A stretch of DNA of 64,000 nucleotides from Lentzea alba (GTDB taxonomy: Bacteria > Actinomycetota > Actinomycetes > Mycobacteriales > Pseudonocardiaceae). Both the position numbers and the translations under genes were made by a program. The first letter of the stretch is position 1, and every line of letters starts with the position of its first letter. The DNA lies in NCBI RefSeq assembly GCF_011067745.1, contig NZ_JAAMPJ010000006.1:62001-126000 (forward strand), read 5' to 3'. The notes below the pieces were generated by a model. The model was not told the origin of the DNA, searched no databases, and worked only from the letters and a program-made list of their open reading frames with translations. Shown here one piece after another: positions 1,298-17,427 of the stretch.

Positions 1298-2860
1298 TCA
1301 CTTGCGCGGAGCCGACTTGGCGGCGCCGAGCTTCGTGCCCTCGGTCTTCGCCTGCTCCAGGGTCACCTTCGGCTGCGAGGCGGCCTGGTGCTGCGCCGAC
1401 GACGAGGTCCAGTAGTCGTAGTAGCACTGGTTCTCGTTGTAGTCGCAGAGCAGGTAACCACCGTCGAAGAGCTGGACGAAGGTGTTCGGCTCCGAGCCGA
1501 ACTGCACGTCACTGGTGGCCATGCCGAGCTGGCCGGAGTAGCCACCGAGCTGCCACCAGCCGGCGCGGAAGTCCCAGCCGATGGTGATCGTGCTGCGGCC
1601 GTTGCCGTCGAAGATCGACGCGTCCTGGAACTCCTGGAAGTTGTACGGGCCGATCTGCCTGATCTCGGTGTTCGGCAGGCCGTAGTAGTAGACGTCGCCG
1701 TCAGCGCGAAGCTTCGCCAGGTACTGGTCGCCCACGATCTGCGCACCGGTGCTCGGACCCCACAGGATGACCTTGTTCGGCCCGAACAGGACGTACAGGC
1801 CGTTGGGGCCGTTCGTCGCGAACTGGTCGGAGGTCGGGAAGCCGAGGGAACCCGTCACGCCACCGGCGTTGCGGAGGCGGTCACGCAGCGCGCCGCTGAG
1901 CCAGTGCGCACCGGTCGCCGGCGAGTGGTAGATCTCGACGGCGTTCTTGAACGTGGCGACGGTGCCGGCGCCAACCGCCGTGACGCCGCTGGTCGGGTAA
2001 CCGGCGTGACCGCCGGGGCCGCCCTGCTGGTAGTACTTGAGGTCGATGTCACCGGTCAGGCGCTGGGCACCGGTGGCGGCGCTCCAGTAGATGTTGCCGC
2101 CGGTGATGCCGACGCTCCAGCCGTTGTTGGCGGCTTCCGCCTGGTCGCGCCACAGCCAACCGGCCGGGCCGTTGGGGCCGTGGTCGGAGTTGTACTGGTC
2201 ACGCAGCGCGCCGCTGATCCAGTACGGCTGTTCGTCGCCGGCCTTCTTGAAGAAGCTGACGGCCTCGCTGAAGCTCTGGTGGGTGCCACCGGCGGTGTGC
2301 ATGACCTCGTCGGAGGTCGGCCAGCCGAACCGGCCGGTGATGCTGCCGTTGGCCCAGTACTTGGCCCGGTTGGTTCCGCTGATGGCGAAGGCGCCGTAGG
2401 CATCCGAGTAGTAGACCGAGTTGCCGTTGTCGAACGCGGACGCGACACCGAGCTGGGAACCGCGGTTCGTCTGCACCTGGTCCATGATGGCGACGGTCTT
2501 CGTGACGCCGTTGGTGTCCAGCCACAGCTGCCACCTCGCGGCCACGGCACCGGAGAACCAGAAGGCGCCGACGCCTTCCTTCCAGGTGATGACGACGTTC
2601 TTGGAGAACTTGGCGTAGCGGATGCCGTCCTCCTGGACGACCTCCTCGTGGACCTTGTCGCCGGCGAACGCGGCGCCGCCCAGCGCCACCCACTTCTTGT
2701 AGACCGGCGAGTCCTCCCACACACCGGCCTGCGCCCTCATGACCGGAGCCTGCTGCTGCACCACGGGCGCGGCGGAGGCTGCGGTGGACGTGACGATTGG
2801 CAAAAGTCCCGCCGTCGCGGCCGCAATGGCAGCGACGAGCGAGACAGCACGACGAGACAT
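1298..2860 (-). CDS. Secreted LGFP-repeat surface protein
   Basis: A 520-residue protein starting at ATG 2860 with a GGGGGAG ribosome site just upstream. Residues 1-32 are a signal peptide ending near TAASA-A. The mature protein opens with VWEDSPVYKKW, as in its truncated paralogue at 1-1204. It then carries a run of LGFP-type repeats (GRFGWPTSDE, GPAGWLWRD, GHAGYPTSG, GSLGFPTSDQ, GQLGMATSD). The last ~50 residues lose the repeat and become a polar Gln/Lys/Ala-rich tail (after YDYWTSSSAQHQ). Probable cell-wall-associated or secreted protein; the tail differs from the known mycolyltransferase fusions of LGFP repeats, and no catalytic domain is seen. Gene has its own upstream region (2861-2998) and terminator. 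Confidence 0.9.
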   Translation of the reverse strand: MSRRAVSLVAAIAAATAGLLPIVTSTAASAAPVVQQQAPVMRAQAGVWEDSPVYKKWVALGGAAFAGDKVHEEVVQEDGIRYAKFSKNVVITWKEGVGAFWFSGAVAARWQLWLDTNGVTKTVAIMDQVQTNRGSQLGVASAFDNGNSVYYSDAYGAFAISGTNRAKYWANGSITGRFGWPTSDEVMHTAGGTHQSFSEAVSFFKKAGDEQPYWISGALRDQYNSDHGPNGPAGWLWRDQAEAANNGWSVGITGGNIYWSAATGAQRLTGDIDLKYYQQGGPGGHAGYPTSGVTAVGAGTVATFKNAVEIYHSPATGAHWLSGALRDRLRNAGGVTGSLGFPTSDQFATNGPNGLYVLFGPNKVILWGPSTGAQIVGDQYLAKLRADGDVYYYGLPNTEIRQIGPYNFQEFQDASIFDGNGRSTITIGWDFRAGWWQLGGYSGQLGMATSDVQFGSEPNTFVQLFDGGYLLCDYNENQCYYDYWTSSSAQHQAASQPKVTLEQAKTEGTKLGAAKSAPRK

Positions 2861-3085: not shown

Positions 3086-4090
3086 TTACTGGGCAGCGGC
3101 GGCCGCGGCGATCCGCGCCTCCGCCTGACGCTTGCGGTACGTCGCGATACCGGCGGCCGCACCCGCGGTCACGATGTCGGCGATGATGAACATCAGGCGC
3201 GAGGCGACCGCGAAGGCCAGGCCCTGCACCGGGTCGATGCCGCTGGCGGCGAGCACCGCGACGATGACGCCTTCACGCACACCCGCACCGGACGGCAGGA
3301 AGAACGCGAACAGGCCGGCGGTCAGACTGATCGCCATGGCGCCGATGCACAGCACCAGACCGCTCACGCCGGGTGCGCCGACGGAGTTCGCCAGCAGCCA
3401 CATGTGGGCGCCGAACGCGATGTAGCCGAGCATGGAGAAGCCGAGGACCTTGCCGATCGTGCCCCAGCGCAGCTGGTGGTCGAGCGGCGGGCGGCGCAGC
3501 GTCTTGAGCACCAGCGAGGTGCCCCACGTGAGGATCTTCGGGTGCAGCGCGATGAGGCCGATCGGCAGCAGGGCGAAGAGCCAGACCGCCTGCGGGGTCT
3601 CCTTGAAGATGACCGGCAGCGCCATGATGCCGAGCAGCAGCGACGCGACCGTGGCTACGCCGAGCTGGATCAGCGAGCCGGTGAAGATGCGGGCACGCGG
3701 GAGGCCCGCCTTGCGGCCCAGCTCCATCTGCAGCAGGTAGGCCCACACCGAGCCGGGCACGTACTTGCCGAGGCCACCGACCAGGCAGATCATGCCGCCG
3801 CGGAACACGCCGATCGGCTTGCCCAGGTCGTCGATGATCGTCTGCCACGCGATGGTGTTGAACCCGATGGCCGCCATGACCGCGATCTGGCTGAGCAGGC
3901 TCGACTGCCACGCCACCGCGGAGATCGTGTGCCACACGTCGTTCCACTTGGTGATCAACGCGTAGGCGGTGAACCCGATGACCAGGACCACCATGAGCCG
4001 GCGACCCCATTGGATGATCTTGCCCTTGGTGGTCTTCGTGCTCTCTGGCGGAACCTCTGCGATGTCCGCATCTGCCTCGACAGTGGTCAT
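3086..4090 (-). CDS. YbhN/LPG-synthase-TM-like multi-pass membrane protein (flippase-like)
   Basis: A 334-residue membrane protein; start set at ATG 4090 (MTTVEAD) because the upstream gene ends at 4134 and GGAG lies about 8 bases upstream. After a ~30-residue soluble N-terminus there are about 7-8 hydrophobic segments. The motifs GKYVPGSVW (middle) and PSGAGVREG (late) are typical of the UPF0104/YbhN family (PF03706), related to the flippase half of MprF. Family members are implicated in moving or exporting lipids or lipid-linked sugars. It is the last gene of the ACP-SDR-ligase-LuxE-LuxC operon, which suggests it translocates the lipid or glycolipid product, but the substrate is unknown. 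The C-terminus is an Ala-rich cytoplasmic tail. Confidence 0.85.
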   Translation of the reverse strand: MTTVEADADIAEVPPESTKTTKGKIIQWGRRLMVVLVIGFTAYALITKWNDVWHTISAVAWQSSLLSQIAVMAAIGFNTIAWQTIIDDLGKPIGVFRGGMICLVGGLGKYVPGSVWAYLLQMELGRKAGLPRARIFTGSLIQLGVATVASLLLGIMALPVIFKETPQAVWLFALLPIGLIALHPKILTWGTSLVLKTLRRPPLDHQLRWGTIGKVLGFSMLGYIAFGAHMWLLANSVGAPGVSGLVLCIGAMAISLTAGLFAFFLPSGAGVREGVIVAVLAASGIDPVQGLAFAVASRLMFIIADIVTAGAAAGIATYRKRQAEARIAAAAAAQ

Positions 4091-4133
4091 CCTGTGGTCT
4101 CCGGTGGAGGTTGGTGGTTGAGGCGGCATCGAC

Positions 4134-5363
4134 TCAGACGGTGACCGTCGTGATGCGGCTGAACTCGGACAGCAGATCGTAGCCGTCCCAAACAGCCGCG
4201 AAGCTGAGGGCCGACCCGAAGGGGACGACCCGGTCGATGCCACGCCCGGCGAGCGAGCGGGTGAAGGTCATCACCTCGTCGCGGTCGAAACCGAACACGC
4301 TGAGCGTCTGGTCCTTGCGCTGCACGATCCGGCCGAACTCGGCCAGGTCGGCGATCGTCGCCTGCGGGAAGGTGCCGACGCCGAGCCACTCGCGCGGCAC
4401 GTCGGCGGGCGCGACCAGTTCGAGCGTCGCGACCGCGTTGCCCTCGAACCGGATCTCCGTGGCGTGGCCCTCGGCGGCGACCCCGTACGCGGAGACGCGC
4501 TTCTGCACGGCCATCGCCGGCTCGACGACGAACTGCTTGCTCGCCACTACCTCGGCGAGCAGCGCGCGGAACTCCTCGCGGGCCGGCCTGGCGCGCTCGG
4601 CGTCGCCGACCCAGAAGAGGGTGCGCGGCGACGAGCAAGCGGCCTGGTCGAACCAGTAGGAGTCGTTGTAGAACCCGATGGCCGCGTCCCGGCGCTGCTC
4701 GGGCGTCGCGGCCTCCCAGCCGGCGACCGAGACGGCGGCGAACGAAGCGCGGTCCGGGAACGTGAGGTCACGGGCGTGCGGGGCCAGCGCGGACTTGCGC
4801 ACCTCGGCCACCGACCGGTCGCCACCCCAGATGACCCGCAGGTCGCAGGCCGCGGACAACGCCGACGTGACGGCCTCGTCGCGGCCGTAGGTGATCATGC
4901 GCTGGGTCTGCGCGATGGCCGGGTGGGCCTCCGCCAGGGACTCGTTCAGCGCCTCGATGACGGCCTGCGCGGCCCCCTGCGAGCGCGGCGAGATGCGCAC
5001 GACGTTCGGGTTGCCGGCGAGCGCGGACAACGCCCACGAGTACACGAAGATCGTGTCCACGTTGGCCGGTGGCACGTGGAAGACGACGCCGCGCGGGAAC
5101 CTCAGCTTGTCGCCGGAGGTCTCCAGAGTGGACAGCGCCTTGGCAATCTCACCCTTGCGCAGGAAGAAGCCCAGCGACGCGAGCTCCGGGTAGCGCCGCG
5201 CGGTGGCGGGCGCGAGGAGCTTGCGCGCGAACTTCACCAGGAACTGGACGACGCGTTCGTCGCCGACGGTGAGGTAACCGCCCTCCGGTTCCGCCGTGAT
5301 CTCGGCGAGCAGGGCGTCGACCTCGACGGCCGGGCCTGCCGGGAAACGCTGCTCAACACTCAC
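4134..5363 (-). CDS. LuxC-family acyl-CoA/acyl-thioester reductase
   Basis: A 409-residue protein matching the LuxC fatty-acid reductase family (PF05893), which reduces an enzyme-bound acyl thioester to an aldehyde with NADPH. Start is GTG 5363, which overlaps the upstream stop as GTGA and implies translational coupling; an upstream ATG at 5393 inside the previous gene is less likely. Family marks: the FHVPPANV and GNPNVVRISPRS nucleotide-binding region (about 95-128) and the FDQAACSSPRTLFWVG segment with the likely catalytic Cys at about 243. In luminous bacteria LuxC works with LuxE to make long-chain aldehydes; the LuxE homologue is the adjacent gene. No luciferase (LuxAB) or LuxD thioesterase is present, so the aldehyde has another destination here, probably a glycan or lipid precursor. 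The missing LuxD may be replaced by the dedicated ACP and ligase. Confidence 0.88.
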   Translation of the reverse strand: MSVEQRFPAGPAVEVDALLAEITAEPEGGYLTVGDERVVQFLVKFARKLLAPATARRYPELASLGFFLRKGEIAKALSTLETSGDKLRFPRGVVFHVPPANVDTIFVYSWALSALAGNPNVVRISPRSQGAAQAVIEALNESLAEAHPAIAQTQRMITYGRDEAVTSALSAACDLRVIWGGDRSVAEVRKSALAPHARDLTFPDRASFAAVSVAGWEAATPEQRRDAAIGFYNDSYWFDQAACSSPRTLFWVGDAERARPAREEFRALLAEVVASKQFVVEPAMAVQKRVSAYGVAAEGHATEIRFEGNAVATLELVAPADVPREWLGVGTFPQATIADLAEFGRIVQRKDQTLSVFGFDRDEVMTFTRSLAGRGIDRVVPFGSALSFAAVWDGYDLLSEFSRITTVTV

Positions 5364-6427
5364 GCCGGGCTCCCGCTGAACGTGTCGGAACATCCGCGCG
5401 CCTCGGCGCGGGGAAGACGGCCGAGCACCGAGAAGCGCTTGCCGGGCCAGTCGCCGTCGTCGATGCCGTGCACGACACCGAGGTCCTCGGTGAGCAGGAC
5501 GTGGCCGGGGTACGACCGCGGCACCGTGCTCACCACCTCGATGACGCCCGGCACGCCGACGGGTTGCTCACGCCACGTCTCCGGGTCGCGGATGACGACG
5601 TCCGCGAAGTCGGGGCAGTACAGCGAGTTGCCGCTCGGACCCTCGAGGAAGACGGTGCCGAGCTGCTCGACCATGCCGTAGTAGTTGTGGATCCGGGTGA
5701 GGCCCGTGTCCTCGGCGAACCGGCGGCGGAACTCCGCGTTGTCGACGGCGCGGTCGATCAGCTTCTTCCAGCCACCGGAGTGGATGAGGATGCCGTTCGA
5801 CAGGTCGAGCTCGTGCTCACGCGCGACCTCGTAGAGGTACTGCCACACCATGAAGGTGAAGCCGAAGATGAGGAACGGCTCGTTGCCGTGGTTCGCGAGG
5901 AACCCCTTGATGGCCTCGACGTCCGGACGGTCGTTCTCGTCCAACGCGTAGACGTGCTTGCGGCCGAAGTTCGCCATGCCGAGCACACCCGCGCCGCGGG
6001 CGGAGAACGAGCGGCGGTTCTTGATGATGCCGATGGTGTCGACCATCAGCATCGGCAGGCGCTGGTCGCCGAGCACGGTGCGCAGCGTCTTGCCGAGGTA
6101 GCGCGGCTGGTCGGCCGCCGCTTCCTTGTCCAGGTAGATCCGGGACACCTCGGCGCCGGTGGTGCCGGACGAGGTGAGCACCTTGAAGACCTCGTCGTCC
6201 GGCACGCTCTTGAGGACGTGGTGCTTGAACATCCGCACCGGCAGCCACGGCAGCTGCTCGACGGAGTCGAACGAGGCGCCGCGGGCGATCCCGAGCGAGC
6301 TCAGGATGCGGTCGTACGGCTCGCCGCCGGTGCGGTGGTGCTCGGTCAGCTCGGTGAGCACGGGCAGCAGCGCCGCCTCGCGCTCGGCCTGGCTCAGGCC
6401 GAACACGCTCTCGGCAGTGGTGGTCAC
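5360..6427 (-). CDS. LuxE-family acyl-protein synthetase/acyltransferase
   Basis: A 355-residue protein of the LuxE family (PF04443), which activates a fatty acid as acyl-AMP, holds it on a Cys and passes it to LuxC. Visible marks are an adenylate-forming SSGTTG motif (about 103-108) and a C-terminal RGCSDT motif with Cys about 346, where family members keep the acyl-accepting Cys. Start ATG 6427 overlaps the upstream ligase stop (ATGA-type overlap), and its own stop overlaps the LuxC start by GTGA. So ligase, LuxE and LuxC are almost certainly made in fixed proportion. Two activating enzymes in a row (AMP ligase and LuxE) suggest separate steps: loading onto the ACP, then transfer to LuxC for reduction. 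Confidence 0.87.
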   Translation of the reverse strand: MTTTAESVFGLSQAEREAALLPVLTELTEHHRTGGEPYDRILSSLGIARGASFDSVEQLPWLPVRMFKHHVLKSVPDDEVFKVLTSSGTTGAEVSRIYLDKEAAADQPRYLGKTLRTVLGDQRLPMLMVDTIGIIKNRRSFSARGAGVLGMANFGRKHVYALDENDRPDVEAIKGFLANHGNEPFLIFGFTFMVWQYLYEVAREHELDLSNGILIHSGGWKKLIDRAVDNAEFRRRFAEDTGLTRIHNYYGMVEQLGTVFLEGPSGNSLYCPDFADVVIRDPETWREQPVGVPGVIEVVSTVPRSYPGHVLLTEDLGVVHGIDDGDWPGKRFSVLGRLPRAEARGCSDTFSGSPA

Positions 6428-7809
6428 GCGCGTCCCTCCAGGGAGCGGTAGTCGATCTTGCCGCTGGCCAGCAGCGGAAGTGCGTCGATGTCCCGCACGT
6501 CGAATCCGGACACGTGCATGTGCAGCTTCTCGGACAGTGCCTTGGCAGCCGCCTTGCGCGTGTCGGCGGCGCAGTTCTCGACCCAGACGACGACCTTGTC
6601 GCCGGCCGGCACCGCGGCCGCCGCACCGATGTCCAACCCGGAACCGCGCAGCATTTGTTCCAGGTCGTCGAGGTTGACCCGGTTGCCGAAGACCTTGCCG
6701 ATCCGCTTCAACCGGCCGGTGATGAACAGGTAACCGTCCGCGTCCAGACGGCCGAGGTCGCCCGTTTCGAGCAGACCGCCCCGGCTGTCCGGTTCGGCCA
6801 GCTCCTCTTCGGACTCCGCGTACCCCATCATCACATTGGGCCCGCGGTACAGCACTTCGCCGACGACGTCCGGAACGGAGGTTTCGGTGCCGTCTTCGAG
6901 GCGGATCGAGAACGCGCCACCGGGCAACGCGGGACCGGCGCTGCCGATCTTCTCGGCGAGCTTCTCCGCGGGCACGGTGGCCATCCGCGGCGCCGCCTCG
7001 GTCTGGCCGTACATGACGAACATGCGGCCGCCGGCGGCGAGCATCTTGTCGTTGAACTCGACGACCAGGTCCTCGCGCAGCTTGCCGCCTGCCTGCGTGA
7101 TGGTGCGCAGGCTCGGGTACTTGGCCGGGTCGAACCGCAGCCGCTTGAGCATCTCGTAGTGGTACGGGACGCCGGCCAGCGAGGTGATCTTGTGCTCCTC
7201 GACGGCCTGCCAGAACGGGCGGCCCATCACGCCGGTCGGCTCCACCACGACGGTCGCGCCGCGCAGCAGGTGGCTGTTCAGCACGGACATGCCGTAGCTG
7301 TAGTGCAGCGGGAGGCTGGTCGGCGCCACCTCGTCCGCGGTGATGCCCAGGACCTCGGCGATCGCCTCGGCGTTGGCCAGCACGGCCTGCCGCGACAGCC
7401 GGACGAACTTGGGGTTGCCGGTCGAGCCGCTGGTCGGCAGCAACACGGCCAGGTCGGGGTGCGGCACGACACCGTCGGCGTCCTCGCGGACCCAGTCGGC
7501 GGTGTAACCGGCGGGCGGCTCGCCCTCGCCACCGAGCACGGCGGCCGGGCGGAACCGGGCGACCAGGCCCAGCAGCACCTCGCGGTCCTGACCGGCGTCG
7601 AGCAGTGCGACGGCCCGGCCGGACTCGAACGCGGCGACGTAGCGCAGCACGCTCGGCACGTCGACGGACGTGCGGGCGAACAGCACACCGGCCGGCAGAG
7701 CAGCGAGTTCGGCGGAGATCTTGTCAACGGCAGCGCGCAGCTCGGGTCCGGCGAGCACCTCGCCGGACGTCGCGTCCACGAGGCGTGCGCCGGGGGCCAG
7801 CAGGCTCAC
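6424..7809 (-). CDS. AMP-dependent acyl ligase (acyl-ACP/acyl-CoA synthetase)
   Basis: A 461-residue stand-alone adenylate-forming enzyme (PF00501). Motifs: P-loop-like LLPTSGSTGNPK (about 127-138), YGQTEAAPRM (about 270), ETGDLGRLDADGYLFITGR with the hinge region following, and a C-terminal ASGKIDYRSLE carrying the catalytic Lys. It is short for a CoA ligase (usually 500-550), as is common for enzymes that load an ACP or carrier in biosynthetic clusters. It overlaps the upstream SDR gene and the downstream LuxE gene by four bases each. The ACP in the same operon is the natural acceptor; the acyl substrate cannot be read from sequence. No condensation or ketosynthase domain is nearby, so this is not a PKS/NRPS starter module. 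Confidence 0.85.
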   Translation of the reverse strand: MSLLAPGARLVDATSGEVLAGPELRAAVDKISAELAALPAGVLFARTSVDVPSVLRYVAAFESGRAVALLDAGQDREVLLGLVARFRPAAVLGGEGEPPAGYTADWVREDADGVVPHPDLAVLLPTSGSTGNPKFVRLSRQAVLANAEAIAEVLGITADEVAPTSLPLHYSYGMSVLNSHLLRGATVVVEPTGVMGRPFWQAVEEHKITSLAGVPYHYEMLKRLRFDPAKYPSLRTITQAGGKLREDLVVEFNDKMLAAGGRMFVMYGQTEAAPRMATVPAEKLAEKIGSAGPALPGGAFSIRLEDGTETSVPDVVGEVLYRGPNVMMGYAESEEELAEPDSRGGLLETGDLGRLDADGYLFITGRLKRIGKVFGNRVNLDDLEQMLRGSGLDIGAAAAVPAGDKVVVWVENCAADTRKAAAKALSEKLHMHVSGFDVRDIDALPLLASGKIDYRSLEGRA

Positions 7810-8537
7810 AGCACGAGCCCCCCGTCGACGCCGAGCACCTGCCCCGTCACGAACGAGGCCTCGTCGCTGACCAGGAACCTGATGACCTTCGCGACCTCGT
7901 CGGCGGCACCGAGGCGGCCGAGCGGGGTGTCCTTGCGGACGCGGTCCAGCACCTCTTCGGACTGGCCGGCGGTCAGGTCGGTCTCGATGACGCCGGGCGC
8001 GACCGCGTTGACGCGGATGCCGTACCGGCCGAGCTCCTTGGCGGAGGACTTCGCGAGCGACGCGACCGCGGCCTTGGTGGCCGCGTACACGGACTGACCG
8101 GCGTTGCCGCGCTCACCGACGATCGAGGCGAGCAGCACGATCGAGCCGGTCTTCTTGCGCATCATCGCGCGCGCGGCCGCCTGGACGGACGCGATCGCAC
8201 CGGTGACGTTCGTGTCGAACATGCGCGCCACGTGGTCGTCGCCGATCATGCCGATCAGCGCGCCCTCCATGGCGCCGGCGCTCGCGACCAGCGCGTCGAT
8301 CCGGCCGTGCTCCTTGGCGATCTGCCGGAACACGTCCTTCACCGCGGTGGTGTCCGTCACATCGAGCGCGAGGCCGCTGACCTGGGGACCCAGCTCGGCG
8401 GCCCGCTGCTTGGCGATTGCGGAGTCCCGGCCGGTCAGCACGACCGTCGCACCGGCTTCGGCCAGCGCGGCGGCGGTGGCGAGACCGATGCCCCTGGTAC
8501 CACCGGTGACGACTGCGACCTTGCCGGAGAGAGTCAC
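7806..8537 (-). CDS. FabG-like 3-oxoacyl-[ACP] reductase (SDR)
   Basis: A 243-residue short-chain dehydrogenase starting at GTG 8537, overlapping the ACP stop by GTGA. The NADP-binding TGGTRGIG motif is at 11-18 and the catalytic triad is visible: Ser about 138 (LLASIVG), Tyr 151 and Lys 155 (VYAATK). The usual NNAG motif is changed to ASAG (86-89). The C-terminal GQVLGVDGG is the standard FabG ending. With an ACP immediately upstream and an acyl ligase downstream, it most likely reduces a beta-keto group on an ACP-bound acyl chain, giving a 3-hydroxyacyl group. There is no ketosynthase in the operon, so the keto-acyl precursor must come from elsewhere, or the enzyme acts on a different carbonyl such as an aldehyde made by LuxC. 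Confidence 0.87.
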   Translation of the reverse strand: MTLSGKVAVVTGGTRGIGLATAAALAEAGATVVLTGRDSAIAKQRAAELGPQVSGLALDVTDTTAVKDVFRQIAKEHGRIDALVASAGAMEGALIGMIGDDHVARMFDTNVTGAIASVQAAARAMMRKKTGSIVLLASIVGERGNAGQSVYAATKAAVASLAKSSAKELGRYGIRVNAVAPGVIETDLTAGQSEEVLDRVRKDTPLGRLGAADEVAKVIRFLVSDEASFVTGQVLGVDGGLVL

Positions 8538-8770
8538 TCCGCGCCCAGGTCCTTGAGCATGTCGAGCGAGACCTTGAAGCTGCTCATGTCGATGACCTGC
8601 TCGGTCTCGAACTGCACGTCGAACTCGTCCTCGATGGCCGCGACCAGCGCCATGTGGCCGACCGAGTCCCACTCGTCGATGTCGCGGTACTTCAGGTTCT
8701 CGACGTCGACGTCCTCACCGAGCGCGAGCGCCTCGACGAACGTGTTCCGCAGCCGCTGCTGCAAGTCCAT
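8534..8770 (-). CDS. Dedicated acyl carrier protein
   Basis: A 78-residue acidic protein starting at ATG 8770 with GGGAGA eight bases upstream. It is the first gene of the minus-strand operon. The 4'-phosphopantetheine site is the EWDSVGHM motif (Ser36), followed by an acidic helix (AAIEDEFDVQFE) typical of carrier proteins (PF00550). It differs from primary-metabolism AcpP, which has the motif DSLDTVE, and resembles the discrete carriers of sugar-modification and lipid clusters. It should carry the acyl group handled by the neighbouring ligase, SDR and LuxE/LuxC proteins. Confidence 0.87.
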   Translation of the reverse strand: MDLQQRLRNTFVEALALGEDVDVENLKYRDIDEWDSVGHMALVAAIEDEFDVQFETEQVIDMSSFKVSLDMLKDLGAE

Positions 8771-9029: not shown

Positions 9030-10127
9030 ATGATCCCAATCACCGTTGTCGACGTGAGCGACGCGGAGCCCTATGTGCTCGAGGTGCTTCGCTCGGGCGT
9101 CATCGCTCAGGGTCCGATGGTCAAGCGCTTCGAGGACACCTTCGCCGAGATCGCGGGTGTCGACCACGCCATTGCCGTCAACAACGGCACGACGGCTCTC
9201 GTCGCGGCGATCCAGGCGCTGGACCTGCAGCCCGGCGACGAGGTCGTGACCTCGCCGTTCACCTTCATCGCCACGCTGAACGCGATCCTCGAGGCCGGCG
9301 CCACGGCCCGGTTCGCGGACATCCGCGAGGACGACTTCTGCGTCGACCCCGAGGCGATGGCGGCCGCGATCACGCCGCGGACCAAGGTCCTCATGCCGGT
9401 CCACCTGTACGGCCAGACCGCCGACATGGGCAAGATCGCCCCGCTGGCCGAGGAGCACGGTCTCGCGCTCGTCGAGGACAGCGCGCAGGCGCACGGCGCG
9501 AAGTTCGACGGGAAGGGCGCCGGCAGCTTCGGCCTCGGCTGCTTCTCCTTCTACGCGACCAAGAACATCACGACCGGCGAGGGTGGCATCATCACCACCA
9601 ACGACGCCGAGATCGCCGACAAGCTCCGGGTCATGCGCAACCAGGGCATGCGCGCCCGCTACGAGTACGTGATGGCCGGTCACAACTACCGCCTCACCGA
9701 CCTCGCGGCCGCCGTCGCCATCCCGCAGCTCGCGAAGATCGACGAGATCACCGCGAAGCGCAAGGCGAACGCCGCCAAGCTCAACGAGGGCCTCGCCGGC
9801 ATCACCGGCCTGCGCACGCCGTCCGAGCTGCCCGGCCGCTCGCACGTGTGGCACCAGTACACGGTCCTGATCGGCGACGACGCCGCGCTGACCCGTGACG
9901 AGTTCGCCGCCAAGCTCACCGAGCGCGGCATCGGCAACGGCATCTACTACCCGAAGCTCGTCACGGACTACGACGCGTACCGCGGCCACGCGCAGGTCGT
10001 CATGTCGGAGACCCCGGTGGCGGCGAAGATCGCGCAGCAGTGCCTGTCGATCCCCGTGCACGCCCACCTGACCGACGACCAGCTCGACACCGTCATCGGC
10101 ACCATCCGGGAGGTGCTGGGCGCATGA
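9030..10127 (+). CDS. DegT/DnrJ/EryC1-family sugar aminotransferase
   Basis: A 365-residue PLP-dependent enzyme (PF01041) that converts a keto-sugar nucleotide to an amino sugar. Visible marks are the PLP-region NNGTTALVAA (51-60), SPFTFIATLNAI (75-86), EDSAQAHGA (149-157) and the PLP Lys in FYATKNITTGEGG (Lys178). Start ATG 9030 is preceded by GGAG. It overlaps the following Gfo/Idh/MocA gene by ATGA, and the pair is divergent from the ACP/LuxC/LuxE operon. An aminotransferase plus oxidoreductase pair commonly builds 3-amino or 2,3-diamino sugar nucleotides, so an N-acylated amino sugar is a reasonable destination for the acyl group activated next door. Confidence 0.9.
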   Translation: MIPITVVDVSDAEPYVLEVLRSGVIAQGPMVKRFEDTFAEIAGVDHAIAVNNGTTALVAAIQALDLQPGDEVVTSPFTFIATLNAILEAGATARFADIREDDFCVDPEAMAAAITPRTKVLMPVHLYGQTADMGKIAPLAEEHGLALVEDSAQAHGAKFDGKGAGSFGLGCFSFYATKNITTGEGGIITTNDAEIADKLRVMRNQGMRARYEYVMAGHNYRLTDLAAAVAIPQLAKIDEITAKRKANAAKLNEGLAGITGLRTPSELPGRSHVWHQYTVLIGDDAALTRDEFAAKLTERGIGNGIYYPKLVTDYDAYRGHAQVVMSETPVAAKIAQQCLSIPVHAHLTDDQLDTVIGTIREVLGA

Positions 10128-11101
10128 CCGCGAACCCCCGCATCCTGCTCGTCGGCACCGGCACGATGGGCTCGCTGCACGCCCGCGTGCTCGCCGGTTC
10201 CGACCGCTGCGATCTGGTCCGCGTGGCCGAGCCCCGCGAAGACGCCGGCCGCATGATCGCCGAGCGCTACGACGCGCAGTGGAGCCCCGAGATCGGCGAC
10301 CTGTCCGACGTGGACGCCGTCGTCATCGCCGCCGCGACCGAGTACCACCACGGTCTCGCGGTCGAGGTCCTGAACCAGGACAAGCCGCTGCTCATCGAGA
10401 AGCCGGTCTGTCCCGGCATCGAGGCCTCCGAGGAGGTCGTGGCGCTGTCCGCCCAGCGCGGTGTGCCGCTGATGTGCGGTCTGCTGGAGCGCTACAACCC
10501 GGCCGTCCTCACGGCGTTGTCGCTGGTCGACAACCCGGTGCACGTCACGGCGACCCGCCACTCCCCGTACGCGCCGCGCATCCGCACGGGCGTCTCGTGG
10601 GACCTGCTGGTGCACGACGTCGACCTGGCGATCCGCGTGTTCGGCGGCCAGGACCCGACGGACGTGCAGGGCACGTTCGGCTACTTCCACCCGACCTCGG
10701 TCCAGGGTGCGGAGGACGTGGCGGAGACCGTGCTCGGCTTCGCCAACGGCGGCCTCGCCACCGTGTCCGCGAGCCGCATCGGCCAGCGCAAGGTCCGGTC
10801 GCTGACGATCACCGAGGTCGACCGCCTGATCGAGGCCGACCTGCTGCGCCGCGACGTGACGATCTACCGCCACGTCTCGAACGACGCCGCCACGCCGGAC
10901 GGCCGCGGCTACCGCCAGCAGACGATCATCGAGATCCCCGAGCTGATCTCGGCCCGCGAACCGCTGGCCGCGCAGCTCGACCACTTCCTCGACATCGTCG
11001 CGGGCAAGGCCGACGCGGACGCCGAGCGTTCCGCGATCCTGCCGTCGCACCGCGTTGTGGCGAAGGTGTTCGACCAGCGGACGCAGGTGGCCAGCGTCTG
11101 A
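10124..11101 (+). CDS. Gfo/Idh/MocA-family oxidoreductase
   Basis: A 325-residue NAD(P)-dependent sugar dehydrogenase (PF01408). The N-terminal Rossmann motif is GTGTMGSLHA (11-20) and the family EKP motif lies in LLIEKPVCPG (about 89-98). The C-terminal half is the substrate domain. Start ATG 10124 overlaps the upstream aminotransferase stop (ATGA). In nucleotide-sugar pathways such enzymes oxidise C3 of a UDP- or dTDP-sugar so that a DegT aminotransferase can act, which fits this pair. A perfect terminator follows 12 bases after the stop, so the two genes form a short operon. Confidence 0.88.
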   Translation: MTANPRILLVGTGTMGSLHARVLAGSDRCDLVRVAEPREDAGRMIAERYDAQWSPEIGDLSDVDAVVIAAATEYHHGLAVEVLNQDKPLLIEKPVCPGIEASEEVVALSAQRGVPLMCGLLERYNPAVLTALSLVDNPVHVTATRHSPYAPRIRTGVSWDLLVHDVDLAIRVFGGQDPTDVQGTFGYFHPTSVQGAEDVAETVLGFANGGLATVSASRIGQRKVRSLTITEVDRLIEADLLRRDVTIYRHVSNDAATPDGRGYRQQTIIEIPELISAREPLAAQLDHFLDIVAGKADADAERSAILPSHRVVAKVFDQRTQVASV

Positions 11102-11269: not shown

Positions 11270-13306
11270 ATGGCGTACGACCAGCACCAACGGTTCGTGC
11301 AATTCGTTCCTGGGGGGAATGGTGTCATCTACGGCATTCAGGCAGACGGTCTGCTGCTGCGTTACGAGCACGCGGGCTGGCTGACCGGAACGCCGACGTG
11401 GGCCAACGGCGCGGGGGCGCAGATCGGCAACGGCTTCCAGCAGTTCCGCACCGTTTTCGCCGCGGCGGACGGTCAGATCTTCGGCGTCACCGCGAGTGGT
11501 GACCTCCGCTGGTACAAGCACCTCGGCGGCGGAGCCTGGCACGTGAACAGCGGCTCGACCATCCGCACCGGTCTGCAGGTCTACCCGCGGATCTTCGGTG
11601 GCTGGAACGGCGTCTTCTACGCCGTCGACACCAACGGCAAGCTGCGGTGGTTCAAGTACCTGGCCGGCGACGGCACGAACTCGTGGCACACCAACAGCGG
11701 CAACATCATCAGCAACAACAGCTGGAAGCCGTTCTACGAGCTGTGGGCCGACCCGAACGGCGTCATCTACGGCATCCACACGGGCAGCAACCTGCTGAGC
11801 TGGTGGCGCTACACGTCCGGCGACGGCACGAACGGCACGTGGGTGAACGGCGGCGACGCCTACACGATCGGCAGCGGCTGGTCCGACGACACCCAGAAGA
11901 CGTGGCTCTCCAACGGCTCCGGCACCCACTACGTCGTGTGGCTGGACGGCTCCACGACACCGGGGTTCGACGACAAGCTGATGTGGTTCCGGCTGCTGAA
12001 CTCCGAGACGATCAGCGGCCACTGGACCGGCCTGTGGGTCAACGGCGGCGCACCGCGGCAGGTCGGCTCCGGGTTCACCACCGAGAAGACCGCGGCGCTG
12101 CAGGGCTACGCCACCGACACCAGTCCGCGCCCGACCTACCCGCAGGGCTTCGCGGTGTCGAGCAGCTTCACGACGGTCGAGGCCACGATCGAACGCCTCG
12201 CCGTGCCGGGCCAGACGTCCGGCACCGTCGTGTGGGGCCCGCAGTCGGTGGCCGGCACCCTGCAGTACGTGCCGGGTGACTACCGGTCGGGCGGTTGCGA
12301 CTGGGCCACCACGTTCTCGCTGACCATCCCGGCGACCTGGAAGTCCGGCGCGTACGTGTGCCGGTTGCGCGGCCTGCTGAACGGAACACCGCACCTGCGC
12401 TACGAGATCCCGTTCGCCGTGAAGCCCCCGGCACCGACGGCGAAGCTCGCGGTGCTCCTGCCGACGAACACCTACAACGCGTACAACACCTGGGGCGGTC
12501 ACAACAACTACACGTCCGTCGGCCAGGGCGGTGTGCAGCGCGTCTGCACGTCGTACCGTCCGAACAACGCCGTGTGGACCGACGACCGTGCGATCCTGAG
12601 CCACACCTACTACACGGACCTGCTGTTGCTGCGGTGGATGGTGCAGAACAACATCGAGTTCGACCTCTACCAGGACGGTGACCTGAACGCCGATGGCACG
12701 TGGCTCGGTCAGTACAAGGGCCTCGTCCTCGGCAGCCACTCCGAGTACTGGTCGCAGCTCATGAAGGACCGGGTCAACACCTACCTGTCCAACGGCGGCC
12801 GGGTCGTGAACACCGGCGGCAACACCCTGTTCGCCCGCATCTCGTGGAACGCGGGCGGCGACGCCGTCGTCTTCCGCGCCGCCAACGGCTCGCAGACCGA
12901 CAACTGGTACGCCAACCTCGGCCAGCCCACGCGCGACGTGCTCGGCGCCGACTGGGACGACTCGGAGTTCCTGACCTGGGGCGCTTACGAGACCCTGCTG
13001 CCCGCGCACCCGTTCCTCGCGGGCACCGGCCTCACGTCGGGCGCCGCGTTCGGCGCCGTGTCGTACAACATCTCCGGCAGCGGCTGGGAGACCGACCGCT
13101 GCCCGACTCCGCCGAAGTCGGGCACGGAGATCATCGCCGTGGGGAACAACAGCGGCGGCCCCAACGGCGGTCACATGTACAAGTGGACGCGGTCCGGTGG
13201 TGGCTGGGTGTTCAGCACCGGCTCGATCTCGTTCAACGGGACGCTCGCCGTGGACACGGTGGCGTCGAAGATCCTGCTGAACGTGATGACCGCGGCAGCG
13301 GCTTAG
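11270..13306 (+). CDS. Tachylectin-like propeller fused to N,N-dimethylformamidase-like domain
   Basis: A 678-residue protein from ATG 11270 with GAGGGGGGA upstream. Residues 1 to ~270 hold repeated units of about 45 residues (GVIYGIQADG, QIFGVTASGDLRWYKHL, GVFYAVDTNGKLRWFKYL), as in tachylectin-2-type beta-propellers (PF14517), which bind sugars. Residues ~290-678 resemble the large-subunit domain of N,N-dimethylformamidase, seen in KLAVLLPTNTYNAYNTWGG and GLVLGSHSEYWS. In that family the domain is a glutamine-amidotransferase-like fold with hydrolase activity. No signal peptide is evident, so export is uncertain. The gene stands alone between a terminator and a convergent gene whose stop it overlaps (TTAG). 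Its place inside a glycan island and its lectin propeller suggest it recognises a glycan, but the reaction is unknown. Confidence 0.78.
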   Translation: MAYDQHQRFVQFVPGGNGVIYGIQADGLLLRYEHAGWLTGTPTWANGAGAQIGNGFQQFRTVFAAADGQIFGVTASGDLRWYKHLGGGAWHVNSGSTIRTGLQVYPRIFGGWNGVFYAVDTNGKLRWFKYLAGDGTNSWHTNSGNIISNNSWKPFYELWADPNGVIYGIHTGSNLLSWWRYTSGDGTNGTWVNGGDAYTIGSGWSDDTQKTWLSNGSGTHYVVWLDGSTTPGFDDKLMWFRLLNSETISGHWTGLWVNGGAPRQVGSGFTTEKTAALQGYATDTSPRPTYPQGFAVSSSFTTVEATIERLAVPGQTSGTVVWGPQSVAGTLQYVPGDYRSGGCDWATTFSLTIPATWKSGAYVCRLRGLLNGTPHLRYEIPFAVKPPAPTAKLAVLLPTNTYNAYNTWGGHNNYTSVGQGGVQRVCTSYRPNNAVWTDDRAILSHTYYTDLLLLRWMVQNNIEFDLYQDGDLNADGTWLGQYKGLVLGSHSEYWSQLMKDRVNTYLSNGGRVVNTGGNTLFARISWNAGGDAVVFRAANGSQTDNWYANLGQPTRDVLGADWDDSEFLTWGAYETLLPAHPFLAGTGLTSGAAFGAVSYNISGSGWETDRCPTPPKSGTEIIAVGNNSGGPNGGHMYKWTRSGGGWVFSTGSISFNGTLAVDTVASKILLNVMTAAAA

Positions 13307-13941
13307 GCTTCTTCCTCGGCCTTCGCGAACTCGCCCGCTGGCGCGCCCCAGAGGACTTCCTCACCGCGCGCCTCGGCGAGCTCGCGACGGCGCTTGTTCT
13401 CCGCGCGCACCCGCTCGATCTCGGCGTCGATGTACTCCTGCTCGTACTTCTGGAACACGCGGGCCGGGTTGCCGGCGACGAGCGAGCGCGCGGGCACGTC
13501 CTTGGCCACCACGGACAACGGCTGCACGGTGGCGAAGTCGCCGATGGTCACGCCCGGCATGATCACGCTGTTGCCGCCGATGAAGCAGCCCTTGCCGATG
13601 CGGACCGGCTTGCGCTCGATCAGGTCGCTGCCGGAGTGGTTCTCCAGCGCCATGTTCGCGAGCCAGCTGGAGTGCGTGAAGATCAGGCAGTTCAGCCCGA
13701 TGCTGGTGTGCTCGCCGATCTCCATGCCGCCGCTCGCGTCGAGCACGGCGCCCTCGCCGATCCAGCAGTGGTCGCCCATCTTCAGCTGGTCGGGGCTGAT
13801 CACCTTGGCGCGCTCGCGGATGCGCGTGGTGGCGGGGAGACCGTAGAGCGCGGCGCGCTCCGAGTCGTTCATGTACTGCCCGACGAGGTCGGTGAGGATG
13901 TGCTTGCGGAGGCGGTTGCTCCGCTCGTCGTCGAAGAACAT
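13303..13941 (-). CDS. Left-handed beta-helix (hexapeptide) acyltransferase
   Basis: A 212-residue member of the LbH/WbbJ acetyltransferase family. Hexapeptide-repeat segments run from about residue 55 to 165 (for example GDHCWIGEGAVLDASGGMEIG and VRIGKGCFIGGNSVIMPG), ending in the standard VPARSLVAGNPARVFQ. A charged helical tail of ~45 residues follows. Such enzymes O- or N-acetylate sugars. ATG 13941 overlaps the upstream glycosyltransferase stop as TGATG, so the two are co-translated. The 3' end overlaps the convergent tachylectin-like gene by four bases. Confidence 0.87.
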   Translation of the reverse strand: MFFDDERSNRLRKHILTDLVGQYMNDSERAALYGLPATTRIRERAKVISPDQLKMGDHCWIGEGAVLDASGGMEIGEHTSIGLNCLIFTHSSWLANMALENHSGSDLIERKPVRIGKGCFIGGNSVIMPGVTIGDFATVQPLSVVAKDVPARSLVAGNPARVFQKYEQEYIDAEIERVRAENKRRRELAEARGEEVLWGAPAGEFAKAEEEA

Positions 13942-15140
13942 CAGCGCGTACCTGCCGGGGTCGGAGCGGTCATCAGGTCGAACACGGCGAGGTGCTTGTC
14001 CGTCACCACGTCGAGCGTGAAGTCGCCGAGCACCACGTCCCGCTGCCTGGCGGCGATCCGTTCCCGTTCGTCCGGGTCGTCGAGCAACCGGTTCAGCATC
14101 GCGGCCAGCCCGGCCGGATCGTCGGGCCGGACCAGCAGCGCGTTGTCCCAGTTGCGCAGCTCGACCCAGGGGAAGTTCGTCTCGCGCACGGCGCAGACGG
14201 TGGCCTTGCCCGCCGCCATCGCCTCCAGACTCGCAGTGCCACACCCTATGCCCTGCAGATCGTGCGCAACCACATCGGCCTCCGCCAGGTAGGACGGCAC
14301 CTCGCCCTTCGCCACCGGCCCGGTGGCCACGAAGACGTCGCGCACGCCCAGTTGCTGAGCGAGTTGGAGAAACCTGTCGTAGTAGATGCGGCCGACCACG
14401 AGCACCTTGACCTTGGGGTGCTTCTCCAGCACCGCGGGCATGGCCCTGACCAGCGCCAACCGGTTGCGCAGCGGGATGACGTGACCGAGCGAGACGATCA
14501 ACGGCGCCGCGCACAAACCGTAGCGGTCGCGCACGTCGAACGTCGGCAGCGCGGTGATCTCGCGGGGATCGACGGCCACCGGGATGTGGTCGAACTCTCC
14601 CTGGGTGGCGCCGTAGCGTTGCGCACAGTACTTCTCCGCCATCTCGTCCATGATCACGAACCGCGGCCGGTACAGCCGCAGGATCGGGCGCACGAGGAAG
14701 CGGTCGAGCAGGCGGAACAGGATCGCGTACAGCCGCAGCGTGCTTTCCAGTCGCGTGTGGACGGACAGCAACGCGGGAACCTTGCGCCGGCGGGAGTACC
14801 AGCCGGTGAGCCAGCTCAGGTCGAGGAACTGGCCGTGCTGGTGGATGACGTCCGGCTGGAACTCGTCCAGCAGCCGGAACACCCGGCGGACGTTCGAGGG
14901 CCGGGACGCGAAGGTGATGTCGAAGTCGATCGACAGGCCGAGCTTGGGCATCTTGAACGCGGGCAACCGGTGCACGCGATACCCGTTGACCTGCTCTTCG
15001 GCCGGAGCGTCGCGATAGGCCGCGGTCAGCACGATCACCTCGTGCCCGCGTTCGACGAACTTCTCGGCCAAGGCTTCCGCGAGGTGCGCACTCCCTCCCA
15101 CCCGTGGCGGGAAGAAGTTGTTCACGACAGCGATGCGCAC
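13941..15140 (-). CDS. GT4-type glycosyltransferase
   Basis: A 399-residue GT-B fold enzyme. Start GTG 15140 (VRIAVVNNFFPPRVGG) has AGGAG seven bases upstream. The N-terminal domain shows the GGSAHLAEALAEKFVERGHEV acceptor-side loop and helix. The C-terminal domain has the nucleotide-sugar site around GIGCGTASLEAMAAGK with the conserved Glu. Members transfer sugars to lipid-linked or protein acceptors in surface polysaccharide or glycolipid synthesis; donor and acceptor cannot be inferred. Coupled to the hexapeptide acyltransferase downstream; a terminator separates it from the upstream epimerase gene. Confidence 0.88.
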   Translation of the reverse strand: MRIAVVNNFFPPRVGGSAHLAEALAEKFVERGHEVIVLTAAYRDAPAEEQVNGYRVHRLPAFKMPKLGLSIDFDITFASRPSNVRRVFRLLDEFQPDVIHQHGQFLDLSWLTGWYSRRRKVPALLSVHTRLESTLRLYAILFRLLDRFLVRPILRLYRPRFVIMDEMAEKYCAQRYGATQGEFDHIPVAVDPREITALPTFDVRDRYGLCAAPLIVSLGHVIPLRNRLALVRAMPAVLEKHPKVKVLVVGRIYYDRFLQLAQQLGVRDVFVATGPVAKGEVPSYLAEADVVAHDLQGIGCGTASLEAMAAGKATVCAVRETNFPWVELRNWDNALLVRPDDPAGLAAMLNRLLDDPDERERIAARQRDVVLGDFTLDVVTDKHLAVFDLMTAPTPAGTR

Positions 15141-15163
15141 CTGGCAGCTCCTATCCGCTTTCA

Positions 15164-15193
15164 CGTGGACGCGGCCGGGTTGCCGCGTCCACG
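15164..15193 (-). terminator. Hairpin after the epimerase gene
   Basis: An 11-bp perfect stem, CGTGGACGCGG / CCGCGTCCACG, with an 8-base loop, sits in the 72-base gap between the epimerase stop and the glycosyltransferase start, both on the minus strand. Confidence 0.75.
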
Positions 15194-15212
15194 CTAGTTC
15201 GGCAGCCGAGCG

Positions 15213-16154
15213 TCAGCTGGAAGCGCTGAGCTTGACCAGCTCGGTCATCCCGTCCTCGACGGTGATGGTCGGCTCCCAGCCGAGCACCTCCTTGGCGCGG
15301 GTGATGTCCGCGGCACGACGGGAGACGAGGACGTCGCGCGGGTTGAACTGCGGCTCGACGTCGACGCCGACCGCGTTGATCAGGATCTTGGCCAGCTCGG
15401 CGACCGAGGTGTCGATACCCGTTCCGATGTTGACCGGAACATTGTCCTTCTCCGACTCGAGCGCCGCGACGACAGAACGAGCGATGTCGGTGACGTGGAT
15501 GAAGTCCATCGACTGCTCGCCCTTGCCGTCGATGACCGGCGGCAGGCCCTGGCGGAGGCGGTTGACGAAGTGGTTGATCACCGAGGTGTAGTACGCGGTG
15601 GTCTTCTGGCCGGGGCCGTAGACGTTGAAGAAGCGCAGGCCGACCCAGGACAGGCCCTTGGTCCGCTCGTAGAAGCCGAGCAGGTCCTCACCGGAGCGCT
15701 TGGCGATGCAGTACGGGGTGAGCGGCGAGAGCTCGTCGTCCTCGTGCATCGGCAGCTTCTTCGGGTCGCCGTACACCGAGGCGGACGACGCGAACACGAG
15801 CCGGCGCACACCCTGGTCCGCGGCGGCCGCGAACACGTTGTGGTTGCCGACCATGTTGATGTCGACGCTCTCGTACGGGTCCGCGACGCTCTTGTTGATG
15901 GAGACGGCGGCGAGGTGGATGACGCTCTCGCAGCCCTTCATCGCGTTCTGCACCGCACCGCCGTAGCGGACGTCCTGGTCGATGAGCTCGACGTTGCCCG
16001 TCGCCACCAGCTGGCCGACCGCCTCGCGGTCACCGCGGAACATGTTGTCGAAGATGCGAACCTTGTAGTCACGCTCGAGCAGCATCGGGATGACGTGCAT
16101 ACCGATGAAGCCCGCGCCACCCGTGACGAAAACGGTGCGCTGGGACGAGGACAT
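15213..16154 (-). CDS. NAD-dependent nucleotide-sugar epimerase/dehydratase
   Basis: A 313-residue extended SDR starting at ATG 16154. The NAD site GGAGFIG is at 12-18. The catalytic elements are FASSASVYG (Ser about 124) and the YxxxK motif in TPYCIAK (Tyr148, Lys152). The sequence resembles UDP-glucose 4-epimerase or dTDP-glucose dehydratase-like enzymes; which reaction it performs is not resolved by sequence alone. It follows a DegT aminotransferase by 32 bases, probably in the same transcript, and both would supply sugars to the glycosyltransferase downstream. Confidence 0.87.
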   Translation of the reverse strand: MSSSQRTVFVTGGAGFIGMHVIPMLLERDYKVRIFDNMFRGDREAVGQLVATGNVELIDQDVRYGGAVQNAMKGCESVIHLAAVSINKSVADPYESVDINMVGNHNVFAAAADQGVRRLVFASSASVYGDPKKLPMHEDDELSPLTPYCIAKRSGEDLLGFYERTKGLSWVGLRFFNVYGPGQKTTAYYTSVINHFVNRLRQGLPPVIDGKGEQSMDFIHVTDIARSVVAALESEKDNVPVNIGTGIDTSVAELAKILINAVGVDVEPQFNPRDVLVSRRAADITRAKEVLGWEPTITVEDGMTELVKLSASS

Positions 16155-16186
16155 GCGGAAACTCCTGTGCGTTTGCTCGGGGTGGT

Positions 16187-17317: not shown

Positions 17318-17427
17318 ACCTCTCCCTGGCTGGATGGGCCCGAGTGTATAGGTGCTGGAGAGGATCATTCCTCCGTGGGCCGTACTGTTCTCCTAACACG
17401 AACGGACCCGGAAGACGAGGATTTGAC

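Follow-up and report, generated by a model that had tools for sequence, protein, structure and literature searches.

An ACP–SDR–ligase–LuxE–LuxC cassette of Lentzea alba that may supply a short hydroxyacyl group to amino sugars

What does a LuxC–LuxE pair do beside amino-sugar genes? The question is raised by a stretch of 64,000 nucleotides from the 10.2 Mb genome of Lentzea alba (C31:62001-126000, contig NZ_JAAMPJ010000006.1; referred to below as the window), in which genes for an acyl carrier protein (ACP), a short-chain dehydrogenase/reductase (SDR), an AMP-forming ligase, LuxE and LuxC run together next to genes for a sugar aminotransferase and a dehydrogenase. The answer that we favour, with moderate confidence, is that these five genes form a portable cassette. 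In it, a C4 dicarboxylate, malate for instance, would be turned into a short hydroxyacyl group on the cassette's dedicated ACP, and that group would then be passed to a nucleotide-linked amino sugar. The genes concerned are the following, in window coordinates except for the last.

8534-8770, minus strand: dedicated ACP of 78 amino acids, with Ser36 as the presumed phosphopantetheine site and weak matches to NCBIfam ACP models
7806-8537, minus strand: FabG-like SDR (Pfam adh_short_C2, 213.8 bits)
6424-7809, minus strand: AMP-forming acid:ACP ligase (PF00501, 140 bits)
5360-6427, minus strand: LuxE-like acyl-protein synthetase (PF04443, 144.2 bits against a gathering cut-off of 24.9), with Cys346 as the acyl acceptor
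4134-5363, minus strand: LuxC-like acyl reductase (PF05893, 89.5 bits against a gathering cut-off of 21), with catalytic Cys243
3086-4090, minus strand: YbhN-like membrane protein (PF03706, LPG_synthase_TM, 55.8 bits)
9030-10127, plus strand: DegT1, a DegT-type sugar aminotransferase (PF01041, 401 bits; Lys178 kept in 92 of 92 sequences)
10121-11101, plus strand: MocA-type dehydrogenase, with UDP-GlcNAc 3-dehydrogenase as the nearest NCBIfam model and 7bvj as the best PDB match
C31:57742-58461: LpxA-like acyltransferase, a likely partner, outside the window and 3.5 kb beyond its left edge

The six genes on the minus strand are joined by 4-base overlaps at four of five junctions. The remaining gap, between LuxC and YbhN, measures 43 bases if YbhN starts at the ATG at 4090, and a second ATG is found at 4129. 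The Pfam cut-offs are passed for the AMP-binding, LuxE, LuxC, LPG_synthase_TM and SDR families. The ACP matches no Pfam family at E 0.001 and scores 20 bits against 106 with the NCBIfam ACP models, and its serine lies within a D-S-V motif. An earlier note on this DNA, made from the letters alone, had proposed the same six frames, names and strand with mostly 4-base overlaps and a divergent DegT–MocA pair, all of which the coordinates and the Pfam matches bear out.

LuxC of the window matches 89 of the 297 genomes of the family, and 69 of the 297, its own included, carry a full-length orthologue (E 3.3e-99 or better). LuxE matches eight of 396 genomes sampled across the phylum, three of them closely (its own, and two at 70% and 55%), and its closest named relative among the matches listed is that of Lentzea kentuckyensis, at 98% identity. 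A scan of GTDB contigs with the LuxE alignment confirmed at least 553 stretches. The best 80 of these, kept for comparison, come from Pseudonocardiaceae, Micromonosporaceae and Actinomadura, apart from one that is titled Rhodococcus. Among plasmid records 41 matches to LuxE were found, with identities down to 23%, several of the weak ones lying in other kinds of cluster, while cassettes were found on plasmid records of Deinococcus, Ponticoccus, Rhizobium and Nonomuraea. No LuxE match was found in phage records.

From 39 of the 68 other orthologues in the family, the 80 GTDB stretches, two loci of the phylum sample and five plasmid loci we assembled 126 loci, which reduce to 107 distinct ones when compared by their LuxE and LuxC ends. 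The order ACP–SDR–ligase–LuxE–LuxC on one strand is kept in 101 of the 107, with all gaps below 400 bases in 98 of these 101. The exceptions, given by our locus labels, are L074, with the SDR before the ACP; L152 and L157, which have no SDR; L169, with LuxC on the opposite strand; and L170 and L176, with the SDR on the opposite strand. All three alphaproteobacterial loci are rearranged and the Deinococcus locus is not. The five genes are a real conserved unit, far beyond chance, and the set is kept together in many soil bacteria and in some other phyla. A gene set confined to this strain was one of two findings that, according to the earlier note, would speak against its idea, the other being loss of the NADPH site or of the catalytic cysteines of LuxC (about 243) and LuxE (about 346).

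These cysteines are intact. Cys243 and Cys346 align with those of the LuxC–LuxE complex of Photobacterium (PDB entry 7xc6), and in the window and the 126 loci, counted without de-duplication, LuxC Cys243, LuxE Cys346 and ACP Ser36 are each kept in 127 of 127 aligned sequences and the Ser-Tyr-Lys triad of the SDR in 125 of 125. By sequence, LuxC is only distantly related to 7xc6_A (E 0.0014); its predicted model (mean pLDDT 90) has the same chain as its best PDB match, with a TM-score of 0.75 over the query length and 17% identity. LuxE aligns over most of its length with 7xc6_E (E 2.5e-15). Acyl reduction as the core chemistry, as the note had it, is thereby supported, and its exclusion of bioluminescence also stands, as nothing points to luminescence. 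Luminescence and simple synthesis of a fatty aldehyde were both set aside on account of low scores with long-chain LuxE and LuxC models and of pathway logic.

The presence of two carboxyl-activating enzymes (the ligase and LuxE) together with a carrier, a reductase and an SDR is best met by a dicarboxylic acid, one end of which stays bound while the other is reduced. The AMP ligase would join one carboxyl group of a small dicarboxylic acid, with malate as the best guess, to the ACP. LuxE would then activate the other carboxyl group with ATP and hand it to LuxC for reduction to the aldehyde, and the SDR would reduce the aldehyde to the alcohol, giving dihydroxybutyryl-ACP. A sugar N-acyltransferase is expected to move the dihydroxybutyryl group from the ACP to an amino group. 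Alternatively, LuxE and LuxC may reduce the free acid first, after which the ligase would load the hydroxy acid, as for RfbL of Vibrio cholerae, which is described as activating 2,4-dihydroxybutanoic acid itself (PMC12208996). An arginine of the ligase, Arg275, is present in all 127 of the 127 sequences and in the alignment falls opposite the arginine of the Lys330-Arg331 loop of VinN, provided that the VinN chain carries a 16-residue tag as its numbering suggests. VinN is among the PDB relatives of the ligase and, according to the available part of PMC11253843, activates 3-methylaspartate; the alignment offers at most a hint as to substrate. The structure of the ligase was of no use alone as a substrate guide, the 50 matches listed (oxalyl, feruloyl, coumaroyl, succinylbenzoyl, malonyl and amino acid ligases) all having Z scores between 38.3 and 36.0.

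A rival reading, close to that of the earlier note, is a fatty aldehyde or alcohol pathway, in which LuxE and LuxC reduce a long-chain acyl group, as they do in luminous bacteria, and the group ends as the lipid part of a glycan. LuxC, LuxE, the FabG-like SDR and the ACP do all read as fatty-acid enzymes, and a liposugar is proposed in the available text of two papers on flagellin glycosylation islands, in Aeromonas and in Enterobacteriaceae. We nevertheless consider this pathway improbable. On the long-chain NCBIfam equivalogs NF052244 and NF052251, LuxE scores 60.4 bits against 550 and LuxC 36.8 against 750, the ligase stays under every fatty-acid ligase cut-off among the matches listed, and the Aeromonas glycan masses discussed below fit C4 groups. 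A fatty aldehyde is an unlikely product, and the attachment of an aldehyde to a glycan is unlikely as well, because a dedicated ACP and ligase would be idle for a free aldehyde and N-acyltransferases require acyl-ACP or acyl-CoA. Of the note's suggestion that an aldehyde or an acyl group goes onto a surface glycan or lipid, the part that survives is the acyl group, which probably goes to an amino sugar.

The masses in question come from Aeromonas. The group II flagellin glycosylation island of this genus contains orf1-orf3-luxE-luxC downstream of pseH, with no product assigned in the available text, and the parts of the literature available on A. piscicola AH-3 report a flagellin glycan with a pseudaminic acid derivative of 376.14 Da and an unknown moiety of 102 Da. 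We compute 376.148 for pseudaminic acid that carries an acetyl and a dihydroxybutyryl group, 102.032 for a dihydroxybutyryl residue and 1491.490 for the heptasaccharide, reported at 1491.5. Malyl, succinyl, glyceroyl, trihydroxybutyryl and monohydroxybutyryl groups do not fit. In an fgi-1 mutant, as far as the source is available, the 376 Da unit is retained while the rest of the chain, including the 102-Da moiety, is lost; by its listed genotype this mutant retains the cassette, and orf1-5 are not among the deletions of the strain list. No glycan masses for strains lacking the cassette were found in our literature search. By this analogy, the cassette product could account for both the 376-Da and the 102-Da parts.

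The same masses bear on a second explanation, in which the SDR reduces a 3-ketoacyl-ACP, for example to 3-hydroxybutyryl-ACP for a sugar, and LuxE and LuxC act separately or without reducing anything. The nearest family of the SDR is that of the 3-oxoacyl-ACP reductases (TIGR01830, 228 bits, which is under the cut-off), and hydroxybutyryl amides are known on bacterial amino sugars (PMC9912281, in the part available). A hydroxybutyryl group predicts 360.153, against the 376.14 seen in Aeromonas. Further, the catalytic residues of LuxC and LuxE are kept in all sequences and their genes are inseparable from those of the ACP and the ligase; where a gene has been lost, in L152 and L157, it is that of the SDR. 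No ketosynthase was noticed in the gene lists inspected, which were not searched with a ketosynthase profile. We regard a 3-hydroxyacyl product made in this way as unlikely. That wall polymers of Actinoplanes or Kribbella may carry pseudaminic acid bearing a hydroxybutyryl group is a lead for which no usable paper was found.

For the route through dihydroxybutyryl-ACP, the sugar genes next to the cassette indicate where the group might go. Neighbouring genes were scored by tblastn over the fetched flanks of the 107 distinct loci. The LpxA-like gene is found with DegT1 and MocA in 62 loci, with DegT1 in five and alone in four, and DegT1 with MocA alone in seven. PseB and PseG occur in 11 loci, PseB, PseG and PseH in four, and PseH alone in eight, such that the pseudaminic-acid genes PseB/PseG adjoin the cassette in 15 of 107; no locus combines the LpxA-like gene with Pse genes. 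An N-acyltransferase gene is present in 83 of the 107 (LpxA-like in 71, PseH-like in 12), and the LpxA-like gene starts less than 1 kb from the ACP gene in 67 of its 71 loci. The tie to amino-sugar genes that the earlier note drew is supported. The co-occurrence with DegT/MocA pairs about which the note asked is seen in the 62 loci with, and the seven without, an LpxA-like gene.

The transferase varies with the taxon: Pseudonocardiaceae would use an LpxA-like enzyme, several loci of Micromonosporaceae and Actinomadura a PseH-like one, and Deinococcus and Rhizobium a NeuD-like one. In the deinococcal locus L168 a NeuD-family acyltransferase follows directly after LuxC (185.5 bits against 160.8), both Rhizobium loci hold a gene annotated as acyl-ACP--UDP-GlcNAc O-acyltransferase, of which the one scanned is NeuD-type (153.4 against 160.8), and in Ponticoccus (L169) LuxE is followed by a PseH-like gene. 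With the PseH equivalog TIGR03585, the sole family listed at E 1e-10, L143 scores 72.6 and L169 69.7 against 93.1. Neither the PseH-like nor the LpxA-like proteins reach the cut-offs of the equivalogs for the usual enzymes, which a different acyl donor might account for. Of the Actinoplanes proteins, PseB exceeds its cut-off (490.8 against 407.75), and PseC (402.5 against 423.5) and PseG (127 against 153.55) fall short. In a quick LuxE tree of 36 loci, the window and nine other LuxE proteins, with several long branches and some unsure placements, the cassette LuxE proteins lie on one side of a branch with an SH-aLRT support of 99. Within it the pse and lpx settings interleave, and the cassette therefore seems to have changed its partner sugar genes.

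In 54 of the 107 loci YbhN is the same-strand neighbour of LuxC, and the earlier note had counted it as the sixth gene of one unit. We opened ten loci with an LpxA-like gene and no cassette nearby (L180-L189). In seven of them (L180-L184, L186 and L188, the last of these weak) the LpxA-like gene has matches to MocA and DegT1 in its vicinity, and in six (L181-L184, L186 and L188) it also has YbhN. L185, L187 and L189 have neither pair, and the genome of L185 carries a cassette elsewhere. From this, MocA, DegT, the LpxA-like enzyme and YbhN look like a base sugar module to which the five genes are an addition. YbhN was accordingly rejected as a part of the acyl operon and assigned to the sugar genes.

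Split transketolase genes lie by the cassette in two Rhizobium plasmid loci (L170:3200-5024 and L176:3368-5192), where transketolase may extend the cassette intermediate. That the aldehyde itself is the product generally, for C–C or C–N bond formation by transketolase or a DegT enzyme, is very unlikely: one of these two loci also has a DegT gene and the SDR is missing from L152 and L157, yet transketolase was noticed in those two loci only, the others not having been profile-searched for it, and DegT1 stays with MocA where no cassette is nearby and so has a sugar role of its own.

In Lentzea, MocA and DegT would produce a UDP-3-amino sugar as the acceptor of the dihydroxybutyryl group, destined for a cell-wall glycan whose genes adjoin galactan genes. 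MocA scores 131.7 bits against a cut-off of 450 with NF040723, an archaeal model and the best family listed. Its best structural match, 7bvj, we take to be GnnA. The LpxA-like gene is the only match in the genome to the LpxA C-terminal domain family and the genome has no match to LpxC, so this enzyme is unlikely to serve lipid A. Nor does the cassette serve a flagellum in Lentzea, since the genome has no flagellin match. The LpxA-like protein scores 170.6 bits against 231 with TIGR01852 and 183.3 against 226 with PRK05289. Among 57 sequences His108 is conserved in 57, His127 in 54, His143 in 55 and Arg187 in 55; the histidine that aligns with that of the solved LpxA enzymes is kept in 57 of 57. 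One aligned position is Met in 52 of 57, presumably the position that serves as the chain-length ruler of LpxA, and would suit a short acyl chain. Genes for UDP-galactopyranose mutase (Glf) and a GlfT2-type galactofuranosyltransferase lie near the LpxA-like gene, Glf being detected in 11 of 87 loci, and this neighbourhood makes a cell-wall glycan the likely destination.

LpxA-like genes (E 1e-30) are found in 59 of 64 genomes with LuxC and in 38 of 223 others, a count that takes its 287 genomes to be the first 287 of the family genome list. The LpxA-like gene was rejected as a partner exclusive to the cassette, as it co-occurs strongly yet is also found alone.

Several observations weigh against the route proposed here. 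The 38 family genomes with an LpxA-like gene and no LuxC orthologue show that this gene is not cassette-specific, and six of the 107 loci (L074, L085, L168, L170, L171 and L176) contain none of the sugar genes sought. The ligase is about equally like aryl-acid, oxalyl, feruloyl and other ligases, the SDR of the final reduction is absent from L152 and L157, and an O-methylglyceroyl group has the same mass as dihydroxybutyryl. Finally, the V. cholerae O1 system compared below uses one LuxE–LuxC protein and an iron alcohol dehydrogenase where the cassette has two proteins and an SDR.

A number of other features were seen in and around these loci, in part with a quick gene calling of the flanks that gets frames wrong at times and was used for leads only. 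Tandem genes for secreted proteins with LGFP-like repeats separate YbhN from the LpxA-like gene in Lentzea (window 1298-2860; also L035:13552-17499), with matches in two of 87 loci of one set and five loci of another. Beside the sugar genes, window 11270-13306 encodes one protein in which a tachylectin domain precedes a C-terminal domain resembling the beta subunit of N,N-dimethylformamidase. A second sugar cluster at window 13303-17368 (hexapeptide acyltransferase, family 4 glycosyltransferase, epimerase and DegT2) recurs near the cassette, its epimerase being matched in 25 of 87 loci. The locus titled Rhodococcus rhodnii (L092) resembles Kibdelosporangium and its title is probably wrong. On a plasmid of Streptomyces europaeiscabiei (L174:4289-10435), LuxE and LuxC follow MBL-fold and DUF692 genes with YcaO on the opposite strand, an arrangement suggestive of a peptide natural-product cluster that employs LuxE and LuxC. 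On a Priestia megaterium plasmid (L175:3318-9631), LuxE stands with a fatty acyl-AMP ligase, a carrier protein, an oxidoreductase, an iron-sulfur scaffold and a cysteine desulfurase.

A broader proposal, which we advance tentatively, is that of a widespread portable tailoring unit. By reducing a carboxylate it would produce 2,4-dihydroxybutyrate, or a similar C4 hydroxy acid, on a carrier protein, and whichever acyltransferase adjoins it would use this group to N-acylate nucleotide sugars that are unrelated to one another. One chemical unit would then be paired with three kinds of sugar acyltransferase, LpxA-like, PseH-like and NeuD-like. If this is true, an LpxA-type enzyme would build a cell-wall sugar in the Gram-positive Lentzea, the 376-Da and 102-Da components of the Aeromonas flagellin glycan would have an explanation, and genes filed under fatty acid synthesis in flagellin and envelope clusters could be tested as a pathway whose product mass is predicted. 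The unit, together with the V. cholerae O1 genes compared below, would also be a natural route to 2,4-dihydroxybutyric acid, for which no natural pathway had ever been described according to the available part of a metabolic-engineering paper (PMC5481828).

How does the cassette compare with known systems? The fatty acid reductase of Photobacterium shares the fold and the catalytic cysteines, whereas the Lentzea set has a dedicated ACP, a ligase and an SDR, has no light genes, and its LuxC is 17% identical. The GnnA–GnnB–LpxA route to 3-amino lipid A, with roles as given in the available part of PMC5644692, likewise consists of a dehydrogenase, an aminotransferase and an LpxA-type acyl-ACP transferase. 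It differs in that Lentzea is Gram-positive, lacks an LpxC match, has Glf/GlfT2 nearby and scores below the equivalog cut-offs. The earlier note took the gene set for a candidate for a little-described pathway; this is not supported, since the Aeromonas group II island has all five gene kinds in the identical order ACP, SDR, ligase, luxE, luxC, and Enterobacteriaceae flagellin islands with Acp, FabG, CaiC, LuxE and LuxC share the gene families, with no product assigned in the available text. The Aeromonas comparison is by gene description, and Lentzea differs in having no pse genes in the window and no flagellin match in the genome. In the open-licence literature we found no product assigned to the cassette.

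The closest logic is that of V. cholerae O1, where a putative tetronate pathway from rfbK, rfbL/wbeL, VC0250 and rfbN is said to have been put forward by Morona et al. in 1995. Tetronate is 2,4-dihydroxybutanoate. As the available parts of the sources have it, perosamine is acylated with 3-deoxy-L-glycero-tetronate in this organism (PMC3441752) and RfbN, which has a LuxE domain, is tied to the tetronate acid (PMC4772473). Compared by gene description, both systems hold a carrier protein, an AMP ligase, a dehydrogenase for the alcohol step and LuxE/acyl-CoA reductase domains, and the V. cholerae product N-acylates an amino sugar, as the cassette product would; the neighbours differ, being UDP-sugar or pseudaminic genes beside the cassette. 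The gene set expected of a tetronate-type pathway, namely ACP, ligase, LuxE, LuxC and a reductase (here the SDR) clustered with an amino-sugar pathway, is present. Judged by this analogy, the cassette is a putative variant of the proposed tetronate-type pathway, spread more widely than the V. cholerae, Aeromonas and Enterobacteriaceae examples in print.

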